A DNA stretch of 64,000 nucleotides, from IMG/VR virus record IMGVR_UViG_3300020469_003050, positions 278,608 to 342,607 of that record; one strand, written 5' to 3'. Of this stretch, positions 2,215 through 56,120 are shown piece after piece. The first letter of the stretch is position 1. Each line of letters begins with the position of its first letter. The translations under genes and the position numbers were made by a program. Below the pieces are notes generated by a model. That model was not told the DNA's origin. It was given only the letters and a program-made list of their open reading frames with translations, and ran no database searches. Origin of the DNA: a virus.

Positions 2215-2568
2215 ATGAAAACATCAATTATCGGACTGCTAGTCGCAGTCTTTTTTTCTGCAACGGCGTTTGCAGAAGACACAAGTGTATCAAATGATAT
2301 TTCTTGGTCTCTAACATTAGAGAGACAAACAGAAGCAAATGCTAATACAGGCGAACTAATGGGGACTATGGAAGTTTTAGGACTTGATGTTTCTGCGGGT
2401 GGACTGTGGAACATTGATAAATCAGGTGAAGATTTTATTGACTTGAATAAAACGATGTTAAATGTTAGCCACTCGCTTTCTGACCAAGCAAAAGTGTATC
2501 TAAAGAATGACTTTAGTACAGATTGGGACAGAACTGAGTCAACAATAGGTCTACAAATTACGTTTTAA
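2215..2568 (+). CDS. Small secreted or outer-membrane protein
   Basis: 117 residues from ATG 2215, chosen because AAGGAGGA at 2203-2210 sits seven bases ahead; an in-frame ATG at 2191 has no comparable site. The first 20 residues form a classic Sec signal peptide ending AFA. The mature part alternates hydrophobic and polar residues and ends in an aromatic (GLQITF), as in short outer-membrane beta-barrel strands. It may be a fragment-sized porin-like or periplasmic protein. The exact role is unknown. Confidence 0.6.
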   Translation: MKTSIIGLLVAVFFSATAFAEDTSVSNDISWSLTLERQTEANANTGELMGTMEVLGLDVSAGGLWNIDKSGEDFIDLNKTMLNVSHSLSDQAKVYLKNDFSTDWDRTESTIGLQITF

Positions 2569-2572
2569 TTTG

Positions 2573-2603
2573 TTGACAAAAACACCTCTATAGTGTATAA
2601 ATA
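2573..2603 (+). promoter_or_regulatory. Promoter of the tmRNA: sigma70-type overlapping a late motif
   Basis: TTGACA at 2573-2578 and TATAAA at 2596-2601, 17 bases apart. The -10 region is part of TATAAATA (2596-2603), the exact T4-type late promoter word. The tmRNA could therefore be transcribed by the host sigma factor early and by the phage late factor afterwards. Confidence 0.7.
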
Positions 2604-2611
2604 TAGATGTT

Positions 2612-2879
2612 AACGTTGAAGCAAGTTCAACACTATACAGGACCTGGGGGCAGTACCCAGCAGGTCCACCATAAACACATTATCAGTTTGCATTAGTGTG
2701 TTTATGATGGGCCTGAACTAGGATCGACTGGTGGTTAATAGGCGAGTGGAGTTAACCGAGTGACTTCGTTATTGGTCAAACACTATAATTGCAAACGACA
2801 ATTATCAGCCAGAAATGGCAATGGCGGCCTAATTTAGGCACGTAGGGGTTGGTGACTTGCCTGGCAACAGAAAAGTCAC
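2612..2879 (+). ncRNA. ssrA: Circularly permuted (two-piece) tmRNA
   Basis: tmRNA rescues stalled ribosomes and tags the nascent chain for proteolysis. The 3' acceptor half comes first: a T-arm CTGGG/CCCAG, then CAGGTCC and encoded CCA ending at 2671. After a 37-base spacer that folds back (TAAACACA / TGTGTTTA), the coding half starts at 2709 with GGGCCTG, which pairs with CAGGTCC over seven bases (one G-U). The tag frame at 2791-2832 encodes ANDNYQPEMAMAA and stop. The permuted order and an ANDN tag are typical of alphaproteobacteria. A hairpin GTGACTT/AAGTCAC (2852-2879) closes the coding half. Exact processed ends are inferred. The phage also encodes ClpX (12572), whose host counterpart degrades tagged proteins. 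Confidence 0.93.
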
Positions 2880-2908
2880 ATTTTTATTTGGGAGTGGGTT
2901 TTTTGTAA

Positions 2909-3247
2909 ATGGCATACGTAGTAACGCAAGATTGTATAAAATGTAAGTATACTGATTGTGTGGAAGTTTGTCCCGTTGATTGCTTTTATGAGGGCAAAGA
3001 TACTTTAGTTATTAACCCAGATGAATGTATAGATTGCGGTGTTTGTGAACCCGAATGTCCTGCAGAAGCAATAATTCCTGATACGCATGAAAAATTTACA
3101 ATGCGACTCTACGATATAAATAAAAAGTGGTCAGAACAATGGCCAGTAATTACAGAAAAGCAAGATCCCTTACCTGATGCTGATTCACTAAATCCAGCAA
3201 TGGGATATTCAGAAGATAAGACAAAGTTGTTAGATGAATACGATTGA
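2909..3247 (+). CDS. fdxA: 7Fe ferredoxin (FdxA type)
   Basis: 112 residues, the usual FdxA length. Cysteines at 9, 17 and 50 fit a 3Fe-4S cluster; 21, 40, 43 and 46 fit a 4Fe-4S cluster, as in the Azotobacter FdI family. The motifs CPVDCFYEG and [12 protein letters not shown] are diagnostic. It is a soluble low-potential electron carrier. It lies directly behind the tmRNA. A ferredoxin-NADP reductase at 43995 could be its partner, which is inference. Confidence 0.93.
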
Positions 3248-4133: not shown

Positions 4134-4927
4134 AGGAACCTATAATTGTTCATTGGGGTAATAACTATATAAATGTTGAAGATTATCAAACCAATGATTG
4201 TAAAATAAATGATTGGGAACATTTTGTTGCTTTAACTAATCAAGCAGATGCGATTTCTAAAACTAAGACTTTTATATATAAAGGTTCTATAAGTTCAGTA
4301 GTAAAAGACTTATTGAAATGGGGTGACGATTATGATGAATATTCATCGCATAGATTTAGTCAAGAAATCGAAATGTTGTTTAGAAAATCAGATAAAGTTT
4401 TAAGTAATCAAGTTGGTCCAATTAAAAGTACAAAAATAAATGCATTTGATTACATACTTGAAACCTTCAGAAAAGGATATACAATTATGGATCCACTTAA
4501 TCTTCATTATTTTGGAAACGGTAAACTTACACCACACCCAGGTTATACTAGATTATTGTTTGGAAAGTTATACACAATGAATATTAATTGTATAATATAT
4601 GATTACACTAATGGAAAATTTGTGCAAGATTTTAAAGACATAAATATCTTTACACCAGACGAAACAAACTTTGATATTAGTGAAAGAAGATATATGTTTA
4701 GTCACACAGGACAAACTAAAAAACCTAAACAGATACATAAAATGTCTGGCAAGAAAAATGGAGTTAAGTATAGAGAAGTTAATGGCAAAGATCCAATTCC
4801 AAAAGAATTGGGAGATCCTAGATTATATAATCCTCCAAAAATATATATAAAACAAAATAATTTAGTAACAGTAAATGGTAGGAAAGTACTTAAAAACAAT
4901 AATGGACTTTGGGAGTTAGTATTATGA
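4130..4927 (+). CDS. Hypothetical protein, second of a tandem paralogous pair
   Basis: 265 residues from ATG 4130, which overlaps the previous stop as ATGA. It carries the matching blocks HPGYTRLLFGKLY, YDYTNGKF, VNGRKVL and the same ending LWELVL. The upstream copy is longer in the middle, so the pair has diverged by insertion or deletion. Function unknown. Confidence 0.7.
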   Translation: MKEPIIVHWGNNYINVEDYQTNDCKINDWEHFVALTNQADAISKTKTFIYKGSISSVVKDLLKWGDDYDEYSSHRFSQEIEMLFRKSDKVLSNQVGPIKSTKINAFDYILETFRKGYTIMDPLNLHYFGNGKLTPHPGYTRLLFGKLYTMNINCIIYDYTNGKFVQDFKDINIFTPDETNFDISERRYMFSHTGQTKKPKQIHKMSGKKNGVKYREVNGKDPIPKELGDPRLYNPPKIYIKQNNLVTVNGRKVLKNNNGLWELVL

Positions 4928-5475
4928 TAATGACTAAAAAAGATTATGGTTATCCTGTTTGGGTAGTTGAAGAAGTATTTGAAACTAATGTGGCAGATGA
5001 TGTATTAAGACAATCAAAAGATTTACCATTTGTTCCAATGGAAGGCAAGAGAACAGATAAAACAGGTAAAAGAAATTGGATGAATCAATATAAAGGCAAA
5101 GAATGGAATTCATTTGAAGAAGTATGTTTATTGTTTGATAGTAAATATATGAAAAAAAAGTTTAGTGACGTTTGTGAAAAAGACTTTACTAACTTAGGTA
5201 CAAGAATAGAATTATGCAAAGATGCAAAAGGAAGTTGGTTGCACAATCACTTTGACGATAAAGCAAAGTTATTTACTTTACAGATTTACTTAACAGACAC
5301 AGATACAAGTACAAGTTTTATGAAGAAAGATACTCCTGCAAGAAAAAATACAGGTTGGTTCTTTGCAAATACAGGAACTGAACTTCATGGACTAAGTGCT
5401 TTGACACAAAATAGAATAAGCATCATTGTTAACTATTGTGATGAATCATGGAGAGATAGGTCTGTAATTGTATGA
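4924..5475 (+). CDS. 2OG-Fe(II) oxygenase family protein
   Basis: 183 residues from ATG 4924 (ATGA overlap); ATG 4930 is also possible. The iron-binding pattern is visible: HxD-like NHFDDKA near residue 118, a distal His in ELHGL, and an Arg in QNRISI that would bind 2-oxoglutarate. Such enzymes hydroxylate proteins, nucleic acids or small molecules and are frequent in marine T4-like phages. The substrate is unknown. Confidence 0.75.
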   Translation: MIMTKKDYGYPVWVVEEVFETNVADDVLRQSKDLPFVPMEGKRTDKTGKRNWMNQYKGKEWNSFEEVCLLFDSKYMKKKFSDVCEKDFTNLGTRIELCKDAKGSWLHNHFDDKAKLFTLQIYLTDTDTSTSFMKKDTPARKNTGWFFANTGTELHGLSALTQNRISIIVNYCDESWRDRSVIV

Positions 5476-6194
5476 GATATAAAAATAGTAATCAAAGAAC
5501 TAAAGACTATCTAGCTAGATTTGACAAAAATAAAGTTTTACAAAACTTGGTAGGTACGGATACGCCTGTAATTTTAGATATTGGTGCTAACATTGGTCAA
5601 ACTGTAGAAAAGTTAAAGATTATATGGGAGAATGCAGTAATACATTCTATAGAGCCTTTACCAGAAGCATATCAGGAACTATACTTAACGAAGGGCATAA
5701 TGTCAGATGTATATGTGTATAATCATGCTCTAGGCTCAGTAAATGGTTGGCAAGAGTTTAATGTCAATAAACATCAACCTATGCTTAGTGGTTTCTATAA
5801 GCTAAATGAGAATAGCAAAGATAGTATTGCTATCAATAAACCCGAAAAGGCACATAAGAACTTCTTAGAATCTGAACCCACACAGATACCTGTTATGACA
5901 TTAGATACGTTTACAAAGCAACATAACATAGAAAATATAGACATAATTAAGATGGACGTTCAAGGTGCTGAGCCTGAAATACTAGAACATGGTATTGAAA
6001 CATTAAAAAATACACGAATCGTTCTTACCGAACTATCACTATATGATTTGTACGAAAAGCAGTGTAGTTTCTATGATATAGAAAAAACGTTGATTCCCTT
6101 GGGTTTTGAATTATATGATGTTGCTCATGTCAGCAAAAATCCAATGAATGGTCGTACAGATTGGGTTGATTTAATTTATTTGAAAAAAAGTTAA
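5472..6194 (+). CDS. FkbM-family methyltransferase
   Basis: 240 residues. SAM-binding motif I is VILDIGANIGQT, followed by the acidic IEPLPE and the FkbM-typical LDTF and IIKMDVQGAEPEIL blocks. FkbM enzymes O-methylate sugars or other metabolites, in phages often linked to glycan modification. It is the last gene before a promoter and an orphan RNA, overlapping the oxygenase by four bases. Confidence 0.85.
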   Translation: MRYKNSNQRTKDYLARFDKNKVLQNLVGTDTPVILDIGANIGQTVEKLKIIWENAVIHSIEPLPEAYQELYLTKGIMSDVYVYNHALGSVNGWQEFNVNKHQPMLSGFYKLNENSKDSIAINKPEKAHKNFLESEPTQIPVMTLDTFTKQHNIENIDIIKMDVQGAEPEILEHGIETLKNTRIVLTELSLYDLYEKQCSFYDIEKTLIPLGFELYDVAHVSKNPMNGRTDWVDLIYLKKS

Positions 6195-6237: not shown

Positions 6238-6551
6238 CATAAGCATAAAACAATTTAGCGGTTGTTTTATTGTAGTGCAAGGAAGAGGCTGTTACCAGAC
6301 GGTCGAACTTGACTAGTTAGGGGTGGTACCCAGGCTTAAAGCTGAGAGGCTAAGAGTCACATCGTTCTACCGAACGGAACTAGGTTCCCTGGATTCAGAA
6401 TGGTATCTGTGTCGAGGGGTTGGGGGTGTAACCAAGTCCCTCCTACTTTGCTTATATTTCTGATTGCAATACCAAGCAATCAAAATTAAGAGACGGTTAG
6501 CAAACCATATTTTACTCACTTTCATTTCATATTGCTAACTGTCTCTTTTTT
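6238..6551 (+). ncRNA. Orphan structured RNA of unknown class
   Basis: A gene-free stretch of about 300 bases has its own promoter and ends in a long terminator hairpin. It is richer in G and C than its surroundings. Local helices include GGAAC/GTTCC around 6380, CGTTC/GAACG around 6364, CTTA..TAAG around 6335 and GAGGG..CCCTC around 6415-6443 enclosing GGTT/AACC. No open frame of note. It lacks the conserved blocks of RNase P RNA, SRP RNA and tmRNA. It could be a phage regulatory RNA or a large ornate RNA. Confidence 0.6.
6489..6551 (+). terminator. Intrinsic terminator
   Basis: AGAGACGGTTAGCAA (6489-6503) pairs with TTGCTAACTGTCTCT (6532-6546), 15 pairs with one G-U, and a T run follows. 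The loop is unusually long, 28 bases. It ends the orphan RNA just before the convergent minus-strand gene. Confidence 0.85.
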
Positions 6552-17914: not shown

Positions 17915-18970
17915 ATGTTTAGAAAATTAGTAATGACAGTTGCATTGACTTTAGGTCTAGCAACATCGGCATTAGCTGATTATACATTGATTGTTCCTCA
18001 GGAGCCTGGTAAAGGTACTTCTGTATGGGGAGAAATCATTGCTAAGAACTTAGAAAAGTTCATCGGTGAACCAGTCGTAGTTCGACATATCCCAGGTGCA
18101 AGAGATATTCCTGGATTCAATAAATTCCACAAAAGCCTACGTTTTGATGACAAAACAATCATGGTTGCACACGGTGGTAACGGTGTATCATACTTACTAG
18201 ATAAAGTTGATTACAATTATTTCGATTATGAACTAATTGGTTCAATGAACAATGATATCGTTCTTGGTAAGCATGAAGGCGCAAGTGAAAAAGAAGACCA
18301 TTGGACAATCGCAGGCGGATCAGGTTTCGAACCAGATGCGGCGGCAGTTGCAATGTTAATCTGTGGACCAACAGGTAATAATTCAGTTGATGATTATCTA
18401 GCATGTTGGAGAGAACGTGTAACTTGGGTTAACGGCGTATCAGGCGGTGAAAAACGTCTTGGTTTTAAAAACGGCGAATTCGATGTAGCACGTGAATCAC
18501 CAGCGGCATGGAAACGTTTCTATGAAGGTATTGAAGGTAATGAACTATGGTTCACACACGGCATCCTAGACTTAGAAAACAATGTACAAATGGCAGATCC
18601 AAACTTCCCTAACACACAGTTTGAGGATGTATACGAGTCACTATGGGGCGAAAGACCATCAGGTGATTTATATCAAGCATATAAACTAACTCGTAACTGG
18701 CGTGATGCTATTCAAAAATCACTTTGGATGAACAAAGGTAACCCAAATGCGGCAAAAGTTAAAGCGGCTGTAACTGAAATGATTAATGATCCAGTTGCAA
18801 GTGCAGAGATTTATGCTAAGACTGGTGTTTACCCTTGGATTCAAGATGGACCAGCTTTATTGGCGGCTTTGAAATCTTTAATTACAGAGAAAGCACTTAA
18901 AGATGCGGTTCGTTGGAACCAAGAAGCATATGGCTTCCCATCAATCTATAAGCCTGAACTTTTAAACTAA
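17915..18970 (+). CDS. tctC: Tripartite tricarboxylate transporter solute-binding protein (TctC type)
   Basis: 351 residues with a clear signal peptide (ATSALA cut near residue 21). The mature start YTLIVPQEPGKGTSVWGEIIAKNLEKF corresponds to the Bug/TctC first domain. It captures a carboxylate in the periplasm and hands it to the membrane part TctA, encoded ten bases downstream. It is slightly longer than typical Bug proteins, and the ligand cannot be read from sequence. AAGGAG precedes the start. Confidence 0.83.
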   Translation: MFRKLVMTVALTLGLATSALADYTLIVPQEPGKGTSVWGEIIAKNLEKFIGEPVVVRHIPGARDIPGFNKFHKSLRFDDKTIMVAHGGNGVSYLLDKVDYNYFDYELIGSMNNDIVLGKHEGASEKEDHWTIAGGSGFEPDAAAVAMLICGPTGNNSVDDYLACWRERVTWVNGVSGGEKRLGFKNGEFDVARESPAAWKRFYEGIEGNELWFTHGILDLENNVQMADPNFPNTQFEDVYESLWGERPSGDLYQAYKLTRNWRDAIQKSLWMNKGNPNAAKVKAAVTEMINDPVASAEIYAKTGVYPWIQDGPALLAALKSLITEKALKDAVRWNQEAYGFPSIYKPELLN

Positions 18971-18980
18971 GGATATAGCT

Positions 18981-20489
18981 ATGGATTATGTTATCTGGGC
19001 ATTAATTGGCACCTGTTATGGAATGCTAGTTGGTATTATACCTATCGCAGGTGTAACTACCGCCCTGATAACTGTCTTTAGCATGGGAGCATACTTTATG
19101 GCCGACCCCTATTTGGGGTTGGTCTTTTTAACGGCTATCGTGGCAAGTTGTGCCAGTGCAGATAGTTACACAAGTATTCTTACTGGTATTCCAGGCGCAA
19201 GTACAACTGCGGCATGTGTTATTGATGGTTATCCTATGGCGAAGAAAGGCCAAGCGGCCAGGGCAATGGGAATTGCTATCGCAGATTCAACATTTAATGG
19301 TGTAGTATTTGCGGCTCTAACCTTTTTCTTACTTCCTTATTATGGGAAAGTAATTGTATTATTTGGTCGTCCAGAATTTCTGGGCTTCATGTTGATGGCA
19401 CTTGCATGTGTAGGTTTCGTTGCAAGTAAGAATGTTTTCTTAAGTATCTGTGCAATCATATTTGGATTATGTGTGGGTATGGTAGGAGAAGATGTTGTAA
19501 GTAATCCTAGATTAACATTTGGTTGGGAATATTTACAAAACGGAATAGGCATGGTTGTTCTATTATCAGGTCTGTTTGGTGTTCCAGAATTATTAGATGG
19601 ATTTAGAAGAAAACTAAAATCAGCGGCACCTCCAATGGAAGGAAGTTATTGGGAAGGGCTAAAAGAAGGTTTTGGTGATGTTCGAAAGAATTGGAAAGAT
19701 ATGATGCGTGGTGGTCTAATTGGTTTTGTTACTGGTTTGTTACCAGGTGTAGGAGGCGCAGTAGGTGACTTCTTAGCATACGGTGCCACAAAAGCCGCAC
19801 ATAAAGATAAAGACCAAGAAGTACCTTTTGGATCAGGGAATCCAGTAGGGTTATTAGGCTGTGAAGGAGCCAACAACGCACAGAAAGTATCTAGTATGAT
19901 ACCTGCTTGTTTGTTTGGTATTCCAGCGGCGCCATTTGCGGCTATGGTTATGGCAATCTGTATGTATTTTGGTATGGAAATCGGTACACCTAGTTTACTA
20001 GATGATATTCAATTTACAAATAGTTTAGCATTTGGATATATCTTTGGAACTATTGGTGTAGCACTATTAAGTATATTCTTATACAAATGGATTCTTAAAG
20101 TACTAGAAGTTCCTTTCTGGATTTACGCAACATTTATTTTAGCAGTAATTGTTTATGCTAATATGCAATACACAGGTGGTTGGGAAGACCTAGCCTTACT
20201 GGCTATATTAAGTGCTATTGGTGTTGTATGTAAAATATACAATATTAGTAGACCAGCTATTCTTGTTGCATATGTTGTAGCATTTAAAATTGATGAGTAT
20301 TTTTGGGGAACATTACAGTTGTATGGTTACAAACAATGGAAACCAGGGTTAACTTCAATGTCAGATTTTAGATGGTTTGACTTATTCAACATTTATAATC
20401 ACCCTATCTTTCTTGTGTGTATTCTTATAGCTTTAGGAATATTCATAAATAGTCTTGTAAGAAAAGATAAAGGACTCGATTATACATGA
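18981..20489 (+). CDS. tctA: Tripartite tricarboxylate transporter large membrane subunit TctA
   Basis: 502 residues, the normal TctA length, with about twelve membrane segments. Family blocks GIIPIAGVTTALI, YTSILTGIPGAST and the second-repeat GLLPGVGGAVGDFLAYG are visible. It is the permease channel for citrate-like or other carboxylates. The small subunit TctB expected beside it is absent; the next gene is an oxygenase. Host TctB or a TctB-free mode would be needed. Confidence 0.9.
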   Translation: MDYVIWALIGTCYGMLVGIIPIAGVTTALITVFSMGAYFMADPYLGLVFLTAIVASCASADSYTSILTGIPGASTTAACVIDGYPMAKKGQAARAMGIAIADSTFNGVVFAALTFFLLPYYGKVIVLFGRPEFLGFMLMALACVGFVASKNVFLSICAIIFGLCVGMVGEDVVSNPRLTFGWEYLQNGIGMVVLLSGLFGVPELLDGFRRKLKSAAPPMEGSYWEGLKEGFGDVRKNWKDMMRGGLIGFVTGLLPGVGGAVGDFLAYGATKAAHKDKDQEVPFGSGNPVGLLGCEGANNAQKVSSMIPACLFGIPAAPFAAMVMAICMYFGMEIGTPSLLDDIQFTNSLAFGYIFGTIGVALLSIFLYKWILKVLEVPFWIYATFILAVIVYANMQYTGGWEDLALLAILSAIGVVCKIYNISRPAILVAYVVAFKIDEYFWGTLQLYGYKQWKPGLTSMSDFRWFDLFNIYNHPIFLVCILIALGIFINSLVRKDKGLDYT

Positions 20490-39755: not shown

Positions 39756-40928
39756 ATGCATATTGAAAATGAAATAAAATTAAACTACGATGATGTTCTA
39801 ATCAGACCTAAACGTAGTACATTAGGATCACGTAAAGCAGTTGACTTAGAACGTGGCTTTAATTTTCCAAATTATAAATCTTATGTAGCAAAAGATGTAT
39901 TGCCAGACGGATATCCTGTAGTTGAAAAACAAGATAAAGATTTTCGTGGTGTTCCTATTATTGCAAGTAATATGGATGGTGTTGGTACATTTGAAATGGC
40001 TGATAAATTAGCTGAACAGAAAATTATGACATGCCTAGTCAAAACATATTCAGTAGATGAACTTGTCAGTTTTTATGATGGTGACATAGATAGTAAAAGA
40101 AAAGATTTTGTAGCATATTCTATGGGCATTACTGAAAATGATGAACAAAAATTTAAAGTAGTATATCAACAAACATCAAATATTAAATATGTTTGCATTG
40201 ATGTAGCAAATGGATATTCAGAAAGATTTATAGACTTTGTAAGAGAGTTTAGAATGAATTATCCTCATGTAGTAATTATTGCAGGTAATGTAGTTACTGC
40301 TGACCAGACACAGGAGTTAATCTTAAATGGAGCAGATATCGTTAAAGTGGGTATTGGTCCTGGCAGTGTTTGTACTACAAGGATACAAACTGGTGTGGGT
40401 TATCCTCAATTATCGGCAGTTATGGAGTGTGCCGATGCCGCTCATGGTCTTAATGGACATATTATTGCTGATGGCGGTTGTACTTGTCCTGGTGATGTAG
40501 CAAAAGCATTTGCCGGCGGAGCAGATTATGTTATGTTAGGTGGAATGTTAGCAGGACATGATGAGGGTGGAGGCAAAATTGTTACTAAACATATTGCAAC
40601 AGGTGGAGCATACAAAACATCTGAAGGAACATTTGTTCCTTATTTCGAAGAACAGAATTTTATTCAGTTTTATGGAATGAGTTCAGATGCGGCTAACACA
40701 AAACATTTTGGTGGTCTTAAAGATTATCGTGCTAGTGAAGGTCGTGAAGTGTTAGTTCCATATAGAGGAAATGTAGAAAACACAATACAGACTATTTTAG
40801 GTGGCATTCGTTCAACTTGCACTTATGCAGGTGCAAAAAGGTTGAAACATTTATCAAAATGTGCTACATTTGTTAGAACAAATAGTCAGTTTAATAGAAC
40901 ATATGAATCAACAACAACAAAAATGTGA
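39756..40928 (+). CDS. guaC: GMP reductase (IMPDH/GMPR family)
   Basis: 390 residues. [13 protein letters not shown] at the start, [21 protein letters not shown] with the catalytic Cys, and [26 protein letters not shown] split over the phosphate site. The absence of CBS domains and the CTCPGD block favour GMP reductase (GMP to IMP) over IMP dehydrogenase. It feeds adenine nucleotide synthesis from host GMP. Confidence 0.88.
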
Positions 40929-46224: not shown

Positions 46225-46274
46225 TATACAATATATTGTAAGTAAATTAATCCACAAATTGTAGTAAATACTTA

Positions 46275-46376
46275 TGCAGGCTTTTTGCCTGCACTTTAGT
46301 ACGGTGCTCCCTGCACCGTTCTCTAGTCCTCTTCGCCAACTGACCCGGTAGTAGCAATACTATCGGGTCTTTTTTT
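46275..46376 (+). terminator. Hairpin array ending in a strong terminator
   Basis: Three hairpins in a row: TGCAGGC/GCCTGCA (46275-46293), ACGGTGC/GCACCGT (46301-46319), and GACCCGGTAGTA-GCAA-TACTATCGGGTC (46342-46369). The last has a GNRA loop and is followed by T7, so it is a confident terminator. The first two may protect the RNA end or form a short untranslated RNA. Confidence 0.85.
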
Positions 46377-46406: not shown

Positions 46407-46637
46407 AATAAATATTTGCATGGGAAATACAAGTAGTTTTCTGTTTTACAGTTTACTATCGCAACCCAACTGATATCGCATAATAGCGATTAAAATGAAT
46501 TATTGCGAAGTCCCTTCTCTTTATGAGGTGCAAAAGGTTCGAACCGTTATATTTGCATTGCAACAGTAACAGAGAGGTCTTCTATTCAGAATATAGGGTT
46601 GCACTTTGAGTGCAACCCACTGAAACATTAATCAGTG
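46407..46637 (+). ncRNA. Structured RNA or leader upstream of putA
   Basis: A gene-free region begins with the late-like AATAAATA (46407-46414). GCAACCC (46461-46467) can pair with GGGTTGC (46596-46602), enclosing ATCGC/GCGAT, TGCAAA/TTTGCA and GGTTCGAACC helices. The same GGGTTGC can instead form a perfect ten-pair hairpin, GGGTTGCACT-TTG-AGTGCAACCC (46596-46618). A CACTGA/TCAGTG hairpin follows. Two exclusive folds suggest a switch or a 6S-like rod. No known class recognised. Confidence 0.5.
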
Positions 46638-46642
46638 CGATA

Positions 46643-46650
46643 GATAAATA
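46643..46650 (+). promoter_or_regulatory. T4-type late promoter of putA
   Basis: GATAAATA 26 bases before the putA ATG, leaving room for the AGGGAAAG ribosome site. Confidence 0.65.
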
Positions 46651-46675
46651 CATACATAAGTAAAGCAGGGAAAGT

Positions 46676-49522
46676 ATGAAGTGTTATCCACATAATGATT
46701 ATTATAGATCCGATGAATTAGAAATTGTTCCAAAACTTCTAATTGCATCTAAGGCATCTAGTGAAGTCCTTCGGTCAGTAATGGCTGAGGCAGAAACCAT
46801 TCAATCTAAACTTACCGATGAACATTATTTGACTCATATAATGAAGTCATATGATATGAGTGCTCCTGAGGGCATGGCACTTATGACTCTTTGTGAATCT
46901 CTTTTACGTACACCAGACAAAGAAACACAAGACAAACTTATCAAAGATAAATTATCAAATGCAGAATGGTATAAATTATCTAATAATAGTTTTTATTCTA
47001 AAGCGGCCAGTATTGCATTAACTCAGGCACAAATGCTTTCAGCATATGAAGGTATAGTAGGAAGAATAGGCTGGCCAGCAGTAAGAGAAATGACAAAGAC
47101 TATGGTAAAACAAATGGGTACTTTATTTGTTATGGGTAGCAACATAGAAACTGCAATAAAAAATAAGAAAAAAGGTTATGCATATTCATTTGATATGCTA
47201 GGAGAGGCCGCAACAAATTGGGAAGATGCAAATTTATACTATGAAAGATATTTAGATGCGGCTATTAAGTCAAAAGAATCCATATCTATAAAACTTAGTG
47301 CAATACACCCTAGATACGAATTAAAGAACCACAAAGACGTTTTACACACACTAGTACCTAAATTAGCCGCTATAGCTAGAGTATGCGAAGAAAACAACAC
47401 TACAATGTTTATTGATGCAGAAGAGGCACGTAGGCTCGATATAAGCATTATGATACTTGAAGAAATGCTTAAAACATACAAATTTAAAGATTTTACTATA
47501 GGATTTGCTCTACAGGCTTATCAGAAACGTGCTTTTTGGGTTATTGATACGTTAGAGACAATAGCAGAGCATAGTAGCGCCAAACTCGTTATACGGCTTG
47601 TTAAAGGCGCATATTGGGACACTGAGATAAAGTATTCACAACAAGAAGGACTAGATTATCCAGTATTTACAAGAAAAGAGAATACAGACATATCTTATCT
47701 AGCATGTACTAAAAAACTGATGCATAGTGAAAGATTGAAAACTGCATATGCTACACATAATCCATATACAGTTTCAGCAATACAATGTGTTGGTAAATGT
47801 AGTAAGCAAGAATATGAATTTCAGAAACTTTACGGAATGGGTGATAGTTTATTCAGTCAGATAGTAGGAGATACGAAAGTCAGAGTATATGCACCAGTCG
47901 GTGAGTATAAAGATTTATTAGCATATCTAATAAGACGTTTATTAGAGAATGGTGCTAACACTAGTTTTGTTCATACAAATGAAGTTGTAGATCCTTTTAA
48001 AGAAGTTAAAAAGAAAAAGAAATCACTTAAGTCATGGAAAGATTTATATCCTGGAAGAAAGAATAGTAAAGGATATGATTTAACTGATCCAGCTATGGTT
48101 GATTATATGTTAGACTCTGCGGTTCACCCTCACCATGATGAAGAATTACTTTCAGTGGAAGATAGTATAGAACATTTATACAACTATCAAAATCAATGGG
48201 CAAATACAACATTTGAACATAGAAAGAAAATTCTACTAGCATGTGCAGATAGTTTAGAAGAAGAAATGATTCCTGCGGCAAACAGATTAGTAAAATATTC
48301 TTTTAAAACATATCCAAATGCAGTTGCAGAAATTAGAGAGTCAGTTGATTTTATTCGTTACTACGTAGAACAAGCTGAATTAATGTATGGAGAAAATATC
48401 AAAATAGGTTATACCGGTGAATATAATTCTACAGTTTTTAATCCTAGAGGAACTTGGATGGTAATAGCACCTTGGAATTTTCCTTATGCAATTTTCTTAG
48501 GACCAATCGTAGCCGCATTGATTACAGGAAATACCGTATTGGCAAAACCCGCACCACAGACCCTAGAAATTGCAAAAGTTGTATTGGGTGCAATGCATCA
48601 CGTTGGTGTACCAATAGATGCACTACGTATGTGTGACCCTGATATTGAAGAGGCTTCTAAAGCAATCAAAGATGAACGTATATCAGGTATAACGTTCACA
48701 GGCTCTCATAAGAGTGCTAAGACTATACAGAGGCTTATTGCTGAACGTGATGGGCCTATTATACCTTTCATTGCAGAAACAGGTGGTATAAATTCTATGA
48801 TTGCAGATTCTACTTGTTTACCTGAACAGTTAGTCGAAGATGTATCATATGGTGCATTCGATAGTGCAGGACAAAGATGTTCAGCAACTAGATTTTTATT
48901 TCTTCAAAAAGAAAATAGTGAAGAAATTATTAATATGTTAAAACATAAAATTAAAGTAATATCACTTGGTAATGCAGATGATTTAAATACAGACGTATCA
49001 CGTGTTATTGATGGTGTGGCATATGCAAAGATACAAGAAAGAATTGCAGTACTTGAAGAAAACGAAACATTAATTGCAACGAAATCTCGTAATGGAAAAG
49101 AGTTACCAAAATTAATTATCCCACCAAGTGCTTATCTTGTAACAGACTACAAAAAGTATTTTGATGAAGAAATATTTGGCCCATTGTTGCATGTTTATGT
49201 TTATGAAAAAGATGAATTAGATGAAATAGTATCTTTTATAAATGAAAGTAAATTTGGACTAACATTAAGTATACATTCACGTGTAACTAAGTTCTATGAT
49301 AACATAGCTAAGAAAATGAAGATAGGTAACATTTATATAAACAGAGACCAAATAGGTGCAGTTGTAGAGACTCAACCATTCGGTGGATACGGTTTAAGTG
49401 GTACTGGACCTAAAGCAGGTGGTCCTAATTATCTAACTCCTTATGTGTGGGAGAAACACATAAGCATCAACACTTCTGCTATCGGCGGAGACACTTTGTT
49501 ATTGACTTCTGAACCTCGATAG
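46676..49522 (+). CDS. putA: Bifunctional proline dehydrogenase / P5C dehydrogenase PutA
   Basis: 948 residues. The proline dehydrogenase barrel (about 60-420) shows SFDMLGEAA, SIKLSAIHPRYE, DAEEARRLD, QAYQKRA and RLVKGAYWDTEIKYSQ. The aldehyde dehydrogenase part (about 450-930) shows VIAPWNFPYAIF, FTGSHKSA, ETGGINSMI, the nucleophile in DSAGQRCSATR and EEIFGPLL. It oxidises proline to glutamate, passing electrons to the quinone pool and to NAD+. The N-terminal DNA-binding domain of regulatory PutA forms is absent. No key residue is visibly lost. Exceptional for a phage. Confidence 0.96.
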   Translation: MKCYPHNDYYRSDELEIVPKLLIASKASSEVLRSVMAEAETIQSKLTDEHYLTHIMKSYDMSAPEGMALMTLCESLLRTPDKETQDKLIKDKLSNAEWYKLSNNSFYSKAASIALTQAQMLSAYEGIVGRIGWPAVREMTKTMVKQMGTLFVMGSNIETAIKNKKKGYAYSFDMLGEAATNWEDANLYYERYLDAAIKSKESISIKLSAIHPRYELKNHKDVLHTLVPKLAAIARVCEENNTTMFIDAEEARRLDISIMILEEMLKTYKFKDFTIGFALQAYQKRAFWVIDTLETIAEHSSAKLVIRLVKGAYWDTEIKYSQQEGLDYPVFTRKENTDISYLACTKKLMHSERLKTAYATHNPYTVSAIQCVGKCSKQEYEFQKLYGMGDSLFSQIVGDTKVRVYAPVGEYKDLLAYLIRRLLENGANTSFVHTNEVVDPFKEVKKKKKSLKSWKDLYPGRKNSKGYDLTDPAMVDYMLDSAVHPHHDEELLSVEDSIEHLYNYQNQWANTTFEHRKKILLACADSLEEEMIPAANRLVKYSFKTYPNAVAEIRESVDFIRYYVEQAELMYGENIKIGYTGEYNSTVFNPRGTWMVIAPWNFPYAIFLGPIVAALITGNTVLAKPAPQTLEIAKVVLGAMHHVGVPIDALRMCDPDIEEASKAIKDERISGITFTGSHKSAKTIQRLIAERDGPIIPFIAETGGINSMIADSTCLPEQLVEDVSYGAFDSAGQRCSATRFLFLQKENSEEIINMLKHKIKVISLGNADDLNTDVSRVIDGVAYAKIQERIAVLEENETLIATKSRNGKELPKLIIPPSAYLVTDYKKYFDEEIFGPLLHVYVYEKDELDEIVSFINESKFGLTLSIHSRVTKFYDNIAKKMKIGNIYINRDQIGAVVETQPFGGYGLSGTGPKAGGPNYLTPYVWEKHISINTSAIGGDTLLLTSEPR

Positions 49523-49562: not shown

Positions 49563-50084
49563 ATGAGCGATAAATTACACATATCTTGGGATAGATATGA
49601 AGAAGAAATCGAAAAATTAGCTATAATGGTTCACGAAGATGGATACAAATTCAATCAAGTAGTTTGTATTGCAAAAGGTGGATTAAGAGTAGGAGATATT
49701 TTTGCTAGATTATTTGATGTACCATTAGCAATAATGTCAGTAGAATCATATCATGGTGATGAAGTAAAGGATCAAAGAGGACAAATTATCTTTGGAAATT
49801 CTCTTGCTAAAACAACTCCTAACATAGGTAGCAAAATTTTATTAGTAGATGATTTAGCAGATTCTGGAACAACATTTGAGAAGTGTGTAGAATGGTTACA
49901 ATTCACAGAAGGTTTTTTCATTGAAGATATTAAAACTGCGACAATGTGGTTAAAAGGAAGTTCATCATATACACCAGACTATTTCGTAGAATATTTGGAA
50001 GACAACCCATGGATTGTTCAGCCAATGGAAAAATACGAAGAAATAAATATAGAACAACTTATAAAGAACAGGGAACAACAATGA
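49563..50084 (+). CDS. Purine-type phosphoribosyltransferase
   Basis: 173 residues. VVCIAKGGLRVGDIFARLF and the PRPP loop ILLVDDLADSGTTF, close to xanthine/hypoxanthine PRTases. Likely salvages purine bases, including adenine breakdown products and those from MTA nucleosidase. AGAAGGAAT precedes the start. Confidence 0.82.
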   Translation: MSDKLHISWDRYEEEIEKLAIMVHEDGYKFNQVVCIAKGGLRVGDIFARLFDVPLAIMSVESYHGDEVKDQRGQIIFGNSLAKTTPNIGSKILLVDDLADSGTTFEKCVEWLQFTEGFFIEDIKTATMWLKGSSSYTPDYFVEYLEDNPWIVQPMEKYEEINIEQLIKNREQQ

Positions 50085-50494
50085 GTAAACAGGTAGACTT
50101 AAATAAATACAAAGAGTTTGTACAAGAGGTTACATCAAAGCAGTCAGGCAATACAGACGAACTAACTGCGACTCTTAAAAAACTTGATGAAGAAACAGGC
50201 GTCAATATGGCGTTGCTTATGACAGGTGCAATCGGCATTGCATCAGAGGGAGGCGAGTTCAGTGAGATTGTTAAGAAATGTGTATTTCAAGGTAAACCAC
50301 TTGATAATGAAACTATCTTTCATTGTAAACGAGAACTTGGTGATATTATGTGGTATTGGGTTAATTCTTGCCGTGCATTGGGTTTGGATCCTAATGACGT
50401 AATGGCAGAGAATGTTGAAAAACTAAAAGCAAGATATCCAGGCGGAGAGTTTGATGTTTACTATTCAGAAAATAGAAAAGAAGGAGATTTATAA
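50081..50494 (+). CDS. MazG-like nucleotide pyrophosphohydrolase
   Basis: 137 residues from ATG 50081 (ATGA overlap); the longer open frame is a shadow. EGGEFSEIVKK and ELGDIMWYW form the metal-binding helices of the all-alpha NTP-PPase fold. MazG-like enzymes hydrolyse NTPs or alarmone-type nucleotides and are typical of marine phages. Confidence 0.88.
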   Translation: MSKQVDLNKYKEFVQEVTSKQSGNTDELTATLKKLDEETGVNMALLMTGAIGIASEGGEFSEIVKKCVFQGKPLDNETIFHCKRELGDIMWYWVNSCRALGLDPNDVMAENVEKLKARYPGGEFDVYYSENRKEGDL

Positions 50495-51531: not shown

Positions 51532-51878
51532 TGGACATATATACAATCTACGCAGACCATAGTGAGGAAGTAAATTCTTATCATTTTGCTAAAAAGATGA
51601 AATTGTTTTTAGATAAAATGGTAGAGTTAGGACATATGGAAAGTTATAGACTTACAAGAATGAAATTAGGATTTCGTTCTATGGACTTACCTGAATTTCG
51701 TATCGATATGGAATTCAAAAACATGCAACAACTAGACGATGCAATGACAGGAGTGTTACGTAATGAAGAAAACATTGAGGGAGAACATGTTGGATTTAAT
51801 CATATGGTAGACGTAACAACAATACAACATTTTTTATATAGAGATTTCCCAGATGAATTACCGAATAAACAAGATTAA
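51531..51878 (+). CDS. DUF6614-like protein
   Basis: 115 residues. IYTIYADHSEEVNSYHFAKKMKLFLDKMVELGHMESYRLTRMKLGF split over two helices, and HHM-type end VTTIQHFLYRDFPD, resemble DUF6614. Unknown function. Starts on the previous stop. Confidence 0.7.
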   Translation: MDIYTIYADHSEEVNSYHFAKKMKLFLDKMVELGHMESYRLTRMKLGFRSMDLPEFRIDMEFKNMQQLDDAMTGVLRNEENIEGEHVGFNHMVDVTTIQHFLYRDFPDELPNKQD

Positions 51879-53091
51879 TTCTTATAACGGTTGGGACCCA
51901 TTGAAACAAGTTATTCTTGGCAATGTGTTTGAACCTGAGTTCTTTGAAGACTTGCCAGATACTAGAACAAGAGACTTGATACAACAACTTCTTTACGAAA
52001 CACACGAAGATTTAGATAACATACAAAAGACTATGGAAGACATGGGAGTTGATGTTGTTAGAACACCTGCTAATGCAACTATGTTAGCAGACTTATCAGA
52101 CGGGTTACCTCAAATATCTAAACATACATCAGTAATGGATTGGGTAGAAAAATCAAATACAGACAAGTTTCAAGGTCATGGTATTCCAAAACCTTGTTTA
52201 TCTCCTAGAGATTTCTTTATTTCGATGGGAGATAAAGTTTTATACACTAATGGATTTCATCAATCTAAAGGTCTACAGGTAAATGGACAATCTTTAATAA
52301 ATCCAGAAGTTTTAGATATGAGATTAAAAGGCGATGAGTATACATTTGGTAGATTTATTCCTTCTAAATCATACATGGAAGACAATGGACTTCCAGTAGA
52401 TTGGCTTAGTTGGAATGCACATGAACGTAAAAAAATGGAAAGTGTAAGAGGTAATCAAGTAGCAAGATATAAAGCATCTACTCAAATGTTTTGGGCACCA
52501 ACTATAACACGTATTGGTGATACATTAATTATAGATAAAAAAGATGTTATAAATTTACCAGAAGTAATAAGTGAATTATATCCAAATTATAAAACTCCTC
52601 ATGTCGCTATTGGAGGACATAATGATGCTACATTCTGCACCCCTAAACCTGGTCTAGTAGTATGTGCTCCATGGCTTAAACCAGAGCATTTTAAAGAAAC
52701 ATTTCCAGGCTGGGATATATTAAGAATAGAACATCCTAATCAAATGCAATCAGATTGGGGTGACTGGCAAAACGAAAAACACTTATCACAAGGTAGATGG
52801 TGGCATCCTAAACAAAAAGATAATAAAGCATTTGCAAGATTTGTAGATGCATGGTTAAGTAAATGGGTTGGTTATGTAGAAGAAACAGTATTTGAAGTTA
52901 ACATGCTAAGTGTTTCACCTGATGTTATTTTATCTTTAAATTATCAAAAGGAAGTGCATGACAAATTGAAGCAACATGGAATAGAACCTGTCTATTGTCG
53001 TTTTAGACACAGAAATTTTTGGGATGCAGGGTTACATTGTTTGACAGTTGATACAGTCAGAGACGGTGGAATGCAGAATTATTTTGAATAA
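51853..53091 (+). CDS. Amidinotransferase / arginine-deiminase superfamily enzyme
   Basis: 412 residues. WDPLKQVILGN at the start and LSPRDFFISMGDK give the superfamily strands; GGHNDATFC and the terminal GLHCLTVDTVRDGG carry the catalytic His and Cys. It resembles glycine amidinotransferase, which makes guanidinoacetate from Arg and Gly. Related phage enzymes exist; the substrate is unproven. Overlaps DUF6614 by 26 bases. Confidence 0.85.
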   Translation: MNYRINKINSYNGWDPLKQVILGNVFEPEFFEDLPDTRTRDLIQQLLYETHEDLDNIQKTMEDMGVDVVRTPANATMLADLSDGLPQISKHTSVMDWVEKSNTDKFQGHGIPKPCLSPRDFFISMGDKVLYTNGFHQSKGLQVNGQSLINPEVLDMRLKGDEYTFGRFIPSKSYMEDNGLPVDWLSWNAHERKKMESVRGNQVARYKASTQMFWAPTITRIGDTLIIDKKDVINLPEVISELYPNYKTPHVAIGGHNDATFCTPKPGLVVCAPWLKPEHFKETFPGWDILRIEHPNQMQSDWGDWQNEKHLSQGRWWHPKQKDNKAFARFVDAWLSKWVGYVEETVFEVNMLSVSPDVILSLNYQKEVHDKLKQHGIEPVYCRFRHRNFWDAGLHCLTVDTVRDGGMQNYFE

Positions 53092-53115: not shown

Positions 53116-53409
53116 ATGTATACAGATTATAAAAGTCTTACCGAAGAGGACCTAGATAAGAAGATAACTGATTTGCAATCTAAAATGGAAATCGCTTATC
53201 GCTTGGGACAGGAACACGTTATGGAACAGTTACAACATCATTTGGATGAGTTGAAACTAGAATATTCAGAACGTTTTGAGAAAATGAAGTTTGATTTGAT
53301 AAATCAGAAAACCCCAAATTCTATGGTCATAGGAGAAGACGATGAACCAACAGACGGAGACGATAATACGTCCGAAAAAACCACAAAGGATAATAAACGT
53401 ATATCATAG
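53116..53409 (+). CDS. Coiled-coil protein, 97 aa
   Basis: A long charged helix (DLDKKITDLQSKMEIAYRL) followed by an acidic tail with many Asp and Thr. Probably oligomeric. It overlaps the next gene by 68 bases. Confidence 0.5.
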   Translation: MYTDYKSLTEEDLDKKITDLQSKMEIAYRLGQEHVMEQLQHHLDELKLEYSERFEKMKFDLINQKTPNSMVIGEDDEPTDGDDNTSEKTTKDNKRIS

Positions 53410-53731
53410 CTTGACATGTGACTGCGATGATGTTACTATTACTAAGTTTATAGATTATATGGATACAGAGTGGTCTAATCAGTGGCACCCATTGTTTAAT
53501 ATTAAAACTATGAAATTTGACATTGGGCATGACATATTGCATTTTGAAACATTTAGTGCTAAACTAGATTTAATTAAGTATATTTTAAAACTAAGTCAGT
53601 TGTTTCCTAAGATGTTTTTTATGTATGATTTCTATACAATCAATGAAGCAGACCATAAACAAGGAACGTATTTTGTTATGGACGGAAAGATTACTGACCA
53701 AAATATGATAGCAAATAAAACAGAGGTATAA
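53342..53731 (+). CDS. Hypothetical protein, 129 aa
   Basis: Begins NQQTETIIRPKKPQRIINVYHS. Aromatic-rich middle (LFPKMFFMYDFYTINEAD). The start is uncertain because the first 23 codons overlap the previous gene; a later start is possible. Confidence 0.5.
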   Translation: MNQQTETIIRPKKPQRIINVYHSLTCDCDDVTITKFIDYMDTEWSNQWHPLFNIKTMKFDIGHDILHFETFSAKLDLIKYILKLSQLFPKMFFMYDFYTINEADHKQGTYFVMDGKITDQNMIANKTEV

Positions 53732-53732
53732 A

Positions 53733-54395
53733 TTGACAGACGATTACATAAACAGTTACACAACATATGAAGCAAAATTCAGTGTAACTATGCTACAAGC
53801 AGACCCTTTTATTCTAAGTGATACATTTGATATAAAAATAGATTTCGCTTGGAATTCAGCAGATTTGGCTAAAGGAAACGCGGCTTTTCTAAAAATGAAA
53901 TATTTTGTAGAAGATGTACTACACCAGTCGATATTTACACACAAAGCGGCTACTATTGATATGATGCATTTAAAGAATAAAGTAGTTGTATTTCCTTTTG
54001 TTCCTACAAGTGATATTATTGCAATGACAATACATGCAAAACTAAATGCCATTTGTGCAGATTTTATTGAGGTTGTTTCAGTAACTATTGGAAGTAATTA
54101 CACCAATCCCAAGATGTCTTATACATATTCGGATACACATTATCCAGCATTACCAACATTAAAAGAATGGATTGGGCAAGAAAAGTACTACTATGATTCA
54201 CCATGGTGGGGTCGAAATACCGTAGAAACACAAGATTATTCAGTAAATGAAAATACGGACTTGACATCTCCTCCAGAATTTGATACTATATTAGATAATA
54301 TTGATAAATTGACAATGGGTGAATTAACATTGAAACCAGAAGGCGGAGAAGTTGTAGACATTAATGGCTGGAAACCTAAAATCATCAAAGATTGA
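53733..54395 (+). CDS. Hypothetical phage protein, 220 aa (TTG start)
   Basis: TTG 53733 follows AGAGGT. Contains DIKIDFAWNSADLAKGNAAF, VVVFPFVPTSDIIAMTIHAKL and a C-terminal acidic part. Similar proteins are seen in marine T4-like phages. No function known. Confidence 0.6.
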   Translation: MTDDYINSYTTYEAKFSVTMLQADPFILSDTFDIKIDFAWNSADLAKGNAAFLKMKYFVEDVLHQSIFTHKAATIDMMHLKNKVVVFPFVPTSDIIAMTIHAKLNAICADFIEVVSVTIGSNYTNPKMSYTYSDTHYPALPTLKEWIGQEKYYYDSPWWGRNTVETQDYSVNENTDLTSPPEFDTILDNIDKLTMGELTLKPEGGEVVDINGWKPKIIKD

Positions 54396-54918
54396 CGGTC
54401 TTAAAGACCAGTATGGAAGAATCGTATATAATCGACAAGATTTATACGAAATGCTTTATAATGGCGAAGACATATCTAAAGTCACTGAAATGGAGTGGCA
54501 TGATGATATTGAAAAGTACAATAAAGCATTATCATTAAATAATGTTGAAAAAGACTTGATTGAACCCATACAGAAATTATCTAAGGAAATAACTGAATTT
54601 GATGATGAAAATCAGAAAGAATGGTTTATACCAGATGAATATAAAAACTTAGACATTTGGAAGTATGTATTAGATAAATGTCCTGATGATTTGCCCGAAA
54701 TGAACAGAACATGCAATGAGTTATATTTATATGATAAATACGGTATAATAGACGTACTTAAAGTGTGTGTCTATATTGTTGATACTCTACGTAAACATAA
54801 TATTATATGGGGTGTTGGCAGAGGCAGTAGTGTTTCAAGTTATGTGTTATACTTATTGGGTATACACAAAGTTGATAGCATTAAGTATGAATTGGATATA
54901 AATGAGTTTTTAAAATGA
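54364..54918 (+). CDS. Stand-alone DNA polymerase III alpha-like fragment
   Basis: 184 residues. The last 40 residues (WGVGRGSSVSSYVLYLLGI, then a KYELDINEFL segment) match DnaE just before its catalytic Asp motif (VGPGRGSAAGS.V.YLLGIT.VDP). The polymerase active site itself is absent, so it is not a polymerase. It may act as a binding decoy, a clamp-loader partner or a relic. Overlaps the previous gene by 32 bases. Confidence 0.7.
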   Translation: MAGNLKSSKIDGLKDQYGRIVYNRQDLYEMLYNGEDISKVTEMEWHDDIEKYNKALSLNNVEKDLIEPIQKLSKEITEFDDENQKEWFIPDEYKNLDIWKYVLDKCPDDLPEMNRTCNELYLYDKYGIIDVLKVCVYIVDTLRKHNIIWGVGRGSSVSSYVLYLLGIHKVDSIKYELDINEFLK

Positions 54919-55139
54919 CAAATGATACTATAGTTAAATTTCCAAACAGTAAACGTTGTTTAACGTCTGATGAGGAACGTCTAGTAAAAAGTACAACGAA
55001 CATTATACATAATTCATATCAACATACTAATCCTTTCGTTAAATCAAACGATAGGACAAATTTTGTTGAACTGCAAATTAAAACTTTACTAAGAAAAGTT
55101 TTTGAAATTAACGAAGATACAAACGAGGATATACGATGA
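54915..55139 (+). CDS. Hypothetical protein, 74 aa
   Basis: ATGA overlaps on both sides. Helical and charged (TSDEERLVKSTTNIIHNSY). Not recognised. Confidence 0.55.
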   Translation: MTNDTIVKFPNSKRCLTSDEERLVKSTTNIIHNSYQHTNPFVKSNDRTNFVELQIKTLLRKVFEINEDTNEDIR

Positions 55140-55579
55140 AACAATATAAAAGTATGCGTGGCGTAAGTATAGACCTTGCTAAACTGATGGCAAAATCTGA
55201 AAAGAATATTTCTGTAGGAAATACTCAGACAAATGCCAGAGGAGACCAATTAGGTCGTGGAGGCAGAGTTGTAAAAAGTGCTGATGCAATAGCACGTGAA
55301 CACTATAACGTAAACAATCCACGTGCAGTAGTTAAGTCTTCTATAAAAGTTGATAATGATGTTGATGCATCAGGCAAGGAAGAGGCTGTAAAGAAAGAGC
55401 CTGTCAAACAAACAGAGGATGATTGGGTAGAACCAACTCCTACAAAAGAAGAACCCAAAGAAGAAGTTAAAGAAACTGAACCTGTAACTCAGGAAGCAGA
55501 AGACGATGATTGGGTTGAAGACGAAAACGGAGACTTTGTAAGAAAGTCTGAAACTAAAAAAACTAAAAAAAAGAAATAG
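55136..55579 (+). CDS. Marine-phage protein with acidic repeat tail
   Basis: 147 residues. YKSMRGVSIDLAKLMAKSEK and ISVGNTQTNARGDQLGRGG form an N-terminal block I associate with a conserved protein of T4-like marine phages. The second half is low-complexity Glu/Pro/Thr/Lys with two DDWVE repeats. Unknown function, possibly structural or regulatory. Confidence 0.65.
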   Translation: MKQYKSMRGVSIDLAKLMAKSEKNISVGNTQTNARGDQLGRGGRVVKSADAIAREHYNVNNPRAVVKSSIKVDNDVDASGKEEAVKKEPVKQTEDDWVEPTPTKEEPKEEVKETEPVTQEAEDDDWVEDENGDFVRKSETKKTKKKK

Positions 55580-55597
55580 CTTAAGGGGGCTAAAATT

Positions 55598-55795
55598 ATG
55601 AGAACAATGTTGGCGATTTTTGCATTGGCAATATTAACAGGATGTAGCGGAAACGTTACTCCACCAGAAGTAAAATTGGGTAAAAAGTGTATGACAAATA
55701 ATGACGGTACAGTAGTTTACTCATATGTTTGGATCCATAAAAAAGGAACTGAACTAGAAGCAGACAACGAAACTTGTAAATTGATAGAGGATTAA
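55598..55795 (+). CDS. Small lipoprotein, 65 aa
   Basis: Signal with lipobox LTGC (Cys 16). The mature part has two further Cys (KCM and ETCK) that may form a disulfide. AAGGGGG upstream. Confidence 0.7.
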   Translation: MRTMLAIFALAILTGCSGNVTPPEVKLGKKCMTNNDGTVVYSYVWIHKKGTELEADNETCKLIED

Positions 55796-55796
55796 A

Positions 55797-56120
55797 ATGG
55801 CACAACTAAGACCGTTGGGAGACCGAATTCTATTAAAGAATTTGGATAAAGGGGAAAAGACAACAAAGGGTGGAATCATCGTTCCAGATGATTCACAAAT
55901 GTCCGCAGGTGAACGTGGCATCAGACCACGTTGGGCTCAAATCTATGCAGTAGGACCTAGACAAGAATCTGTACAAGCAGGTCAATGGGTTCTTATGGAA
56001 CATGCAAGATGGACAGAAGCACATAAAGTAGAAATCGATGGTGTAGAAACTGAGATTTGGATGGGTGATCCAGAAGGTATGTTAGGAACAAGTGAGACAA
56101 AGCCAGACGATGTAGCTTAG
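55797..56120 (+). CDS. GroES-like co-chaperonin (phage gp31-like)
   Basis: 107 residues. RPLGDRILLKNLDKGEKTTKG and the mobile loop KGGIIVPDD give the GroEL-binding part; YAVGPRQ-type and GQWVLME strands complete the ring subunit. It differs from host GroES in the loop after the mobile segment, as in T4 gp31 and cyanophage versions. It adapts host GroEL to fold phage proteins, for example the capsid. Confidence 0.9.
   Translation: MAQLRPLGDRILLKNLDKGEKTTKGGIIVPDDSQMSAGERGIRPRWAQIYAVGPRQESVQAGQWVLMEHARWTEAHKVEIDGVETEIWMGDPEGMLGTSETKPDDVA

Follow-up and report, generated by a model that had tools for sequence, protein, structure and literature searches.

Most metabolic genes described in phages act in photosynthesis, carbon flow, nucleotide supply or the uptake of nutrients, and the locus studied here raises the question of whether a phage encodes a complete PutA and, if so, what such an enzyme would do during infection. 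PutA catalyses two oxidations, in which proline and quinone give P5C and quinol, and glutamate semialdehyde and NAD+ give glutamate and NADH. The stretch analysed, hereafter the window, is the final 64 kb (64,000 nt) of a 342,607-bp virus record (IMGVR_UViG_3300020469_003050). The original prediction, made from the letters of the window, placed in it a 948-residue PutA with all recognisable motifs and without the DNA-binding domain, set apart by an upstream terminator and equipped with its own leader RNA and a late promoter. Features of the locus and its surroundings are collected in Table 1.

Table 1. Features of the window; positions are counted from its first nucleotide.
Feature	Position	Strand	Remarks
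Permuted alphaproteobacterial tmRNA	2560-2923		Rfam RF01849, 122.6 bits; tag ANDNYQPEMAMAA
GMP reductase	39756-40928		Passes one of its curated models; purine salvage
110-aa conserved phage protein	45720..46052	+	Syntenic upstream neighbour of putA in jumbo-phage relatives
Promoter-like GTAAATAC	46264..46271	+	Precedes the small RNA; all relatives have TAAATA
Putative small RNA	46272..46376	+	Three hairpins and a T run
Small RNA hairpin 1	46275-46293	+	
Small RNA hairpin 2	46301-46319	+	
Small RNA linker TAGTCCTCTTCGCCAACT	46324-46341	+	Invariant
Small RNA terminator hairpin	46342-46369	+	With T run
Late-promoter-like ATAAATA	46408..46414	+	At the leader's 5' end; L020 has the block too
Structured leader element CGAAGTCCCTTCT...AGAGAGGTCTTC	46506..46584	+	Common to L020 and L029
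Leader hairpin GGGTTGCAC..GTGCAACCC	46596..46618	+	L020 and L029: same place, different sequence
Late-promoter-like ATAAATAC	46644..46651	+	Right before the putA start (ATAAATA at 46644)
putA	46676..49522	+	948 aa, ATG start; bifunctional proline dehydrogenase / L-glutamate gamma-semialdehyde dehydrogenase without RHH
Phosphoribosyltransferase	49563-50084		Closest to xanthine PRTase; follows putA directly; purine salvage
MazG-like nucleotide pyrophosphohydrolase	49946..50494	+	Directly after the small RNA in putA-less L235
Arginine:glycine-amidinotransferase-like protein	51853-53091		2.3 kb downstream of putA; weak PDB match, E 7e-7
Conserved phage gene block	53116..56120	+	Downstream of putA; in relatives with or without putA

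Domains, residues and fold of the phage PutA

Pfam finds Pro_dh (7e-80) and Aldedh (4e-81) in the protein, and Pfam, phmmer and NCBIfam all indicate a PRODH domain fused to a P5C/GSA dehydrogenase domain in one phage protein. In the NCBIfam PutA equivalog model (NF008869) it scores 980.7 bits, above the cut-off of 747, and it stays below the cut-off of the trifunctional PutA model (767.8 bits, cut-off 1750). The same PRODH-ALDH architecture is that of the Bradyrhizobium japonicum enzyme (BjPutA; 3HAZ, 4Q73), which is likewise without the DNA-binding domain and from which the phage PutA differs in being ~37% identical, ~50 residues shorter and phage-encoded; phmmer aligns the two end to end (3HAZ, E 1.3e-192). 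The phage protein begins at about BjPutA residue 5-12 and, because its residue 8 already aligns with chain residue 12, the RHH repressor domain is absent, as predicted; a search for a ribbon-helix-helix domain gave no match in it. PF14850, which Pfam names 'DNA-binding domain of Proline dehydrogenase', matches residues 53-151, that is, the segment preceding the PRODH barrel, which BjPutA has as well.

The phage PutA was aligned with 9 further viral PutAs and 16 from bacteria; all 19 catalytic or ligand positions checked are identical in 26 of 26 sequences, so that the loss of catalytic residues against which the original prediction had warned is not seen. Among these positions are K206, D247, Y313, Y405, Y417, R420, R421 and E424, and N601, K624, E701 and C735, whose PRODH and ALDH roles we assign by reference to PutA structures. 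An AlphaFold2 model (pLDDT 83, pTM 0.84) has BjPutA as its top structural match (4q73/3haz, TM 0.83), with an rmsd of ~6 Å and a low-confidence C-terminus, so the placement of the domains should not be over-read. The protein is predicted to be a catalytically complete bifunctional PutA, and this chemistry is well supported.

Distribution among jumbo phages and probable host

The terminase of the window phage is 56% identical to those of PA5oct-type jumbo phages, the next-nearest being those of Phosso, Atu_ph07, K64-1, XaC1 and GAP32. For the PA5oct / Atu_ph07 / Rak2-like jumbo phages, with genomes of ~285-490 kb, identity of the terminase large subunit is ~45-56%, and within the phage collection none of them has a full-length PutA. 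Query coverage above 80% was reached there in two records only, labelled Acinetobacter phage MD-2021a; since these hold many host dehydrogenase genes they seem to be assemblies of bacterial DNA labelled as phage, were rejected as phage PutAs and were used solely as bacterial PutA. The permuted alphaproteobacterial tmRNA of the window is also present in three other putA phages (G007, G008 and G009), and of 14 control genomes searched with the same model Caulobacter alone gave a match. Because of this tmRNA, the host is probably an alphaproteobacterium, and the putA phages in general probably infect Alphaproteobacteria. The carriers, known from environmental metagenomes, apparently form one clade of T4-type jumbo myophages that infect Alphaproteobacteria.

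An initial scan found the locus almost unchanged in another assembly (L002, with 99.99% identity across 15.4 kb), together with a 75% relative (L003, whose contig is that of L020). A broader scan for putA, the survey of viral contigs that had been proposed with the original prediction, gave 11 loci: beyond the contig of L002, relatives of 62-75% identity lie in eight contigs (L020-L025, L027 and L029; L022 and L023 appear to be near-copies, and L029 sits in a 342,181-bp record), and two distant viral PutAs are found in L026 (42-44%) and L028 (39%). The three longest relatives have the terminase as well, at 78-79% identity. Jumbo-clade loci commonly have the 110-aa gene upstream, and the downstream block too where the contig extends there; a search with a flanking gene found putA adjoining in 10 of the 10 contigs reaching far enough.

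Two contigs of one type, L235 and L238, have the neighbourhood without putA, in the order deaminase, small RNA, mazG and block, so putA appears dispensable for some phages. No putA was found among 18 contigs with related terminases, a negative that carries little weight as most of them are fragments, and no PutA was seen in L212, a 347-kb record with a 52% identical terminase. The dN/dS of putA, ~0.05-0.2 (Nei-Gojobori; higher dS values saturated), indicates purifying selection, and its GC3 lies inside the range of the genome. putA is a metabolic gene resident in phage genomes and conserved across phages; judged from the sequences compared here, it is a stable, though not universal, gene of the jumbo lineage.

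Origin and precedents

The best bacterial PutAs among the matches listed in the genome-contig search were 36-41% identical to the phage PutA, and those sampled from Alphaproteobacteria, and from one order in particular, reached at most ~44%; a bacterial sister above ~44% was not found in the genome contigs and alphaproteobacterial samples, among the matches listed. The phylogeny against alphaproteobacterial PutA suggested at the outset placed nine viral PutAs including L026 in one group apart from the bacterial ones (98% SH-aLRT), with a long stem leading to the jumbo clade, and the jumbo-phage PutAs fall outside all bacterial groups sampled. A topology that unites the jumbo clade and the alphaproteobacterial PutAs nearest to it, leaving L026 outside, was rejected (p-AU 0.007), a value to be read with the usual caution about long branches. 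Support for the branch placing L028 with the other viral PutAs was 7 in one tree and 86 in another. Acquisition of putA does not seem recent, because the nearest bacterial PutAs found are ~44% identical and the stem is long.

Proline oxidation encoded by viruses has a precedent in algae. One report describes a monofunctional 253-aa PRODH, close to the host gene, in the algal large DNA virus OtV5 (PMC2386258), and another also names a proline dehydrogenase in haptophyte viruses (PMC11953307). These are likewise virus-encoded, but consist of PRODH alone and belong to eukaryotic viruses; unlike the OtV5 enzyme, the phage PutA has two domains, occurs in bacteriophages and is far from any host gene found. 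Its sole match in PHROGs runs through an ALDH family whose function is unknown, and its matches in the viral structure library are all partial. In keeping with the original prediction, which knew of no described phage PutA, none was found in PHROGs or in the full-text literature searched, which contains few subscription papers. The enzyme family is a familiar one and, as far as these searches go, its setting is new; a phage PutA may have been reported elsewhere.

Promoters, leader and upstream small RNA

Genome-wide, 26 of the 44 copies of ATAAATAC fall within 60 nt upstream of an ORF start, against 1.5 expected, a placement that resembles that of T4-type late promoters. T4-late-like motifs stand at 46408 and 46644, which agrees with the late promoter predicted in front of the gene, and the type of motif by itself suggests that putA would be expressed late. 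Conservation of the leader proper (46408-46675), with its second helix and its hairpin, is limited to the window phage, L020 and L029, and in L021-L027 another gene occupies its place; the prediction of an own leader RNA holds for the former three and fails for the latter.

Further upstream lies a putative small RNA of three hairpins, present in the window, L020, L021, L022, L024, L025, L027, L029, L235 and L238, with the linker consensus TAGTCCTCTTCGC(C/A)AACT across phages. Eight sequences were aligned by hand, and 208 of 208 base-pair cells are standard pairs, with two-sided changes at many positions; since complementary arms were picked by hand, what is informative is that hairpins and linker keep their order while the arm sequence changes. 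The RNA precedes putA in the window, L020 and L029, a 179-aa gene that itself stands before putA in L021-L027, and mazG without putA in L235 and L238. As it also occurs without putA, it would be an independent phage RNA and no putA switch. The terminator predicted upstream of putA does exist, T run included, as the 3' hairpin of this independent RNA. No Rfam family matches the small RNA or the putA leader at the gathering score, and the small RNA is best described as a putative phage RNA, a candidate supported by covariation. Pairing of its linker with ORF starts showed no gain over shuffled sequences (best -19.9 kcal/mol versus a shuffled mean best of -20.5), and the putA start ranks near the bottom for such pairing.

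Neighbouring genes and transport

Two distant viral lineages share a small gene next to putA. In L021-L027 a gene of 179-180 aa lies upstream and overlaps putA by 4 nt (L025:7465-8004), and in L028 a 197-aa gene (4895-5488), 40% identical to the 179-aa partner, has a 4-nt overlap with the 3' end of putA. Both carry the motif HDCIHxLLGRGxLxQDE, that is, HDxxHx11E, which we take to be the motif typical of COQ4, a protein of ubiquinone biosynthesis; Pfam, PDB and PHROG searches gave no support for this assignment of the 179-aa partner, and its AlphaFold2 model (pLDDT 38) is useless. In L026 (7938-12202) a relative of L-piperidine-6-carboxylate dehydrogenase, at 695.8 bits just below the cut-off of 730, lies 2 nt upstream of putA. 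L-piperidine-6-carboxylate (aminoadipate semialdehyde) dehydrogenase is an enzyme of lysine breakdown, and this pairing fits an amino-acid-oxidation role. The amidinotransferase-like protein of the window could yield ornithine; its gene is absent from the putA loci of L021-L029.

No recognisable proline transporter was seen in the window phage. Its SSS symporter, encoded away from the putA locus, was rejected as PutP (37.8 bits against a cut-off of 515.5) and has no sequence relative in the PDB. Transporters of the phage include a TctA-family protein, preceded by one that bears a signal peptide, as well as a symporter of the sodium:solute type and a permease of the xanthine/uracil type (window 17915-20489, L006:5638-7125 and L007:6363-7655).

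Proposed role and alternatives

We consider it probable that the phage PutA is functional and oxidises host proline for energy and glutamate, close to the original prediction that proline is burned late in infection for energy and nitrogen. The sequence itself shows the phage location, the full catalytic set, the fold, purifying selection and the conserved locus; activity, late timing and metabolic benefit are what we infer. The PRODH domain would convert L-proline to P5C, with electrons passing via FAD to the host membrane quinone; P5C would hydrolyse to glutamate semialdehyde, from which the ALDH domain with NAD+ would make glutamate and NADH. Proline might be freed by proteolysis, imported or drawn from a stored osmolyte, and the phage would gain respiratory energy, as well as glutamate as amino donor or precursor, during its growth. 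Since the RHH domain is absent and the promoters are phage late-like, the gene would escape the proline-dependent control of the host.

That PutA is ordinarily bacterial and the record metagenomic would fit a bacterial or chimeric contig with putA as host DNA, a reading to which we attach next to no probability and which is rejected by the terminase, the second assembly and the syntenic relatives with putA: the same locus recurs in independent assemblies, long relatives hold terminase and putA together, GC is even along the contig, and bacterial searches and Alphaproteobacteria samples contained no PutA above ~44%. The same catalytic evidence would serve equally if PutA were active and its value lay elsewhere, in removing osmolyte or antioxidant proline before lysis, in host damage by P5C or ROS, or in P5C clearance, and sequence cannot say which product matters. 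We nevertheless regard such a value as unlikely, as both domains are under purifying selection and PRODH alone would suffice for proline removal or P5C making, and as the second amino-acid semialdehyde dehydrogenase beside putA in L026 favours complete oxidation.

Regulation by the three-hairpin RNA as a cis-acting leader or riboswitch acting on putA through termination is suggested by its position directly upstream, its intrinsic terminator and the finding of the exact linker and terminator start only in the nine jumbo-clade putA contigs. We judge this very improbable and reject it: the RNA occurs without putA at the locus, before mazG (L235/L238), the gene that it precedes in L021-L027 is another one again, it has a TAAATA motif of its own upstream, the window has a distinct leader downstream of it, and it lacks an Rfam match. 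A wider respiratory programme for burning amino acids, with PutA, the lysine-type dehydrogenase of L026, a COQ4-like partner supplying quinone and the new small RNA managing the locus, is an improbable extension. If the simpler proposal of proline oxidation for energy and glutamate is true, the conserved PutA would mean that some phages switch on respiratory oxidation of free amino acids, obtaining ATP and glutamate together in nutrient-poor hosts. As a marker, phage putA could also help to identify the host and to follow how fast proline turns over in environmental bacteria under infection.

Other features of the phage genome

A manA RNA lies at 6254-6452 of the window (Rfam RF01745, 59.8 bits, gathering score 55.2). 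Elsewhere, a small-molecule-like cluster (L008:2103-8550, genome 82103-88550) holds an AMP-binding ligase, a tryptophan-halogenase-type flavoprotein, a fatty acid desaturase and a beta-ketoacyl synthase. Many minus-strand proteins with radical-SAM-like cysteine motifs are encoded at ~95-147 kb of the genome (L008-L011), with a DegT-type aminotransferase near them; both of the two tested match Radical_SAM, and one also matches SPASM.
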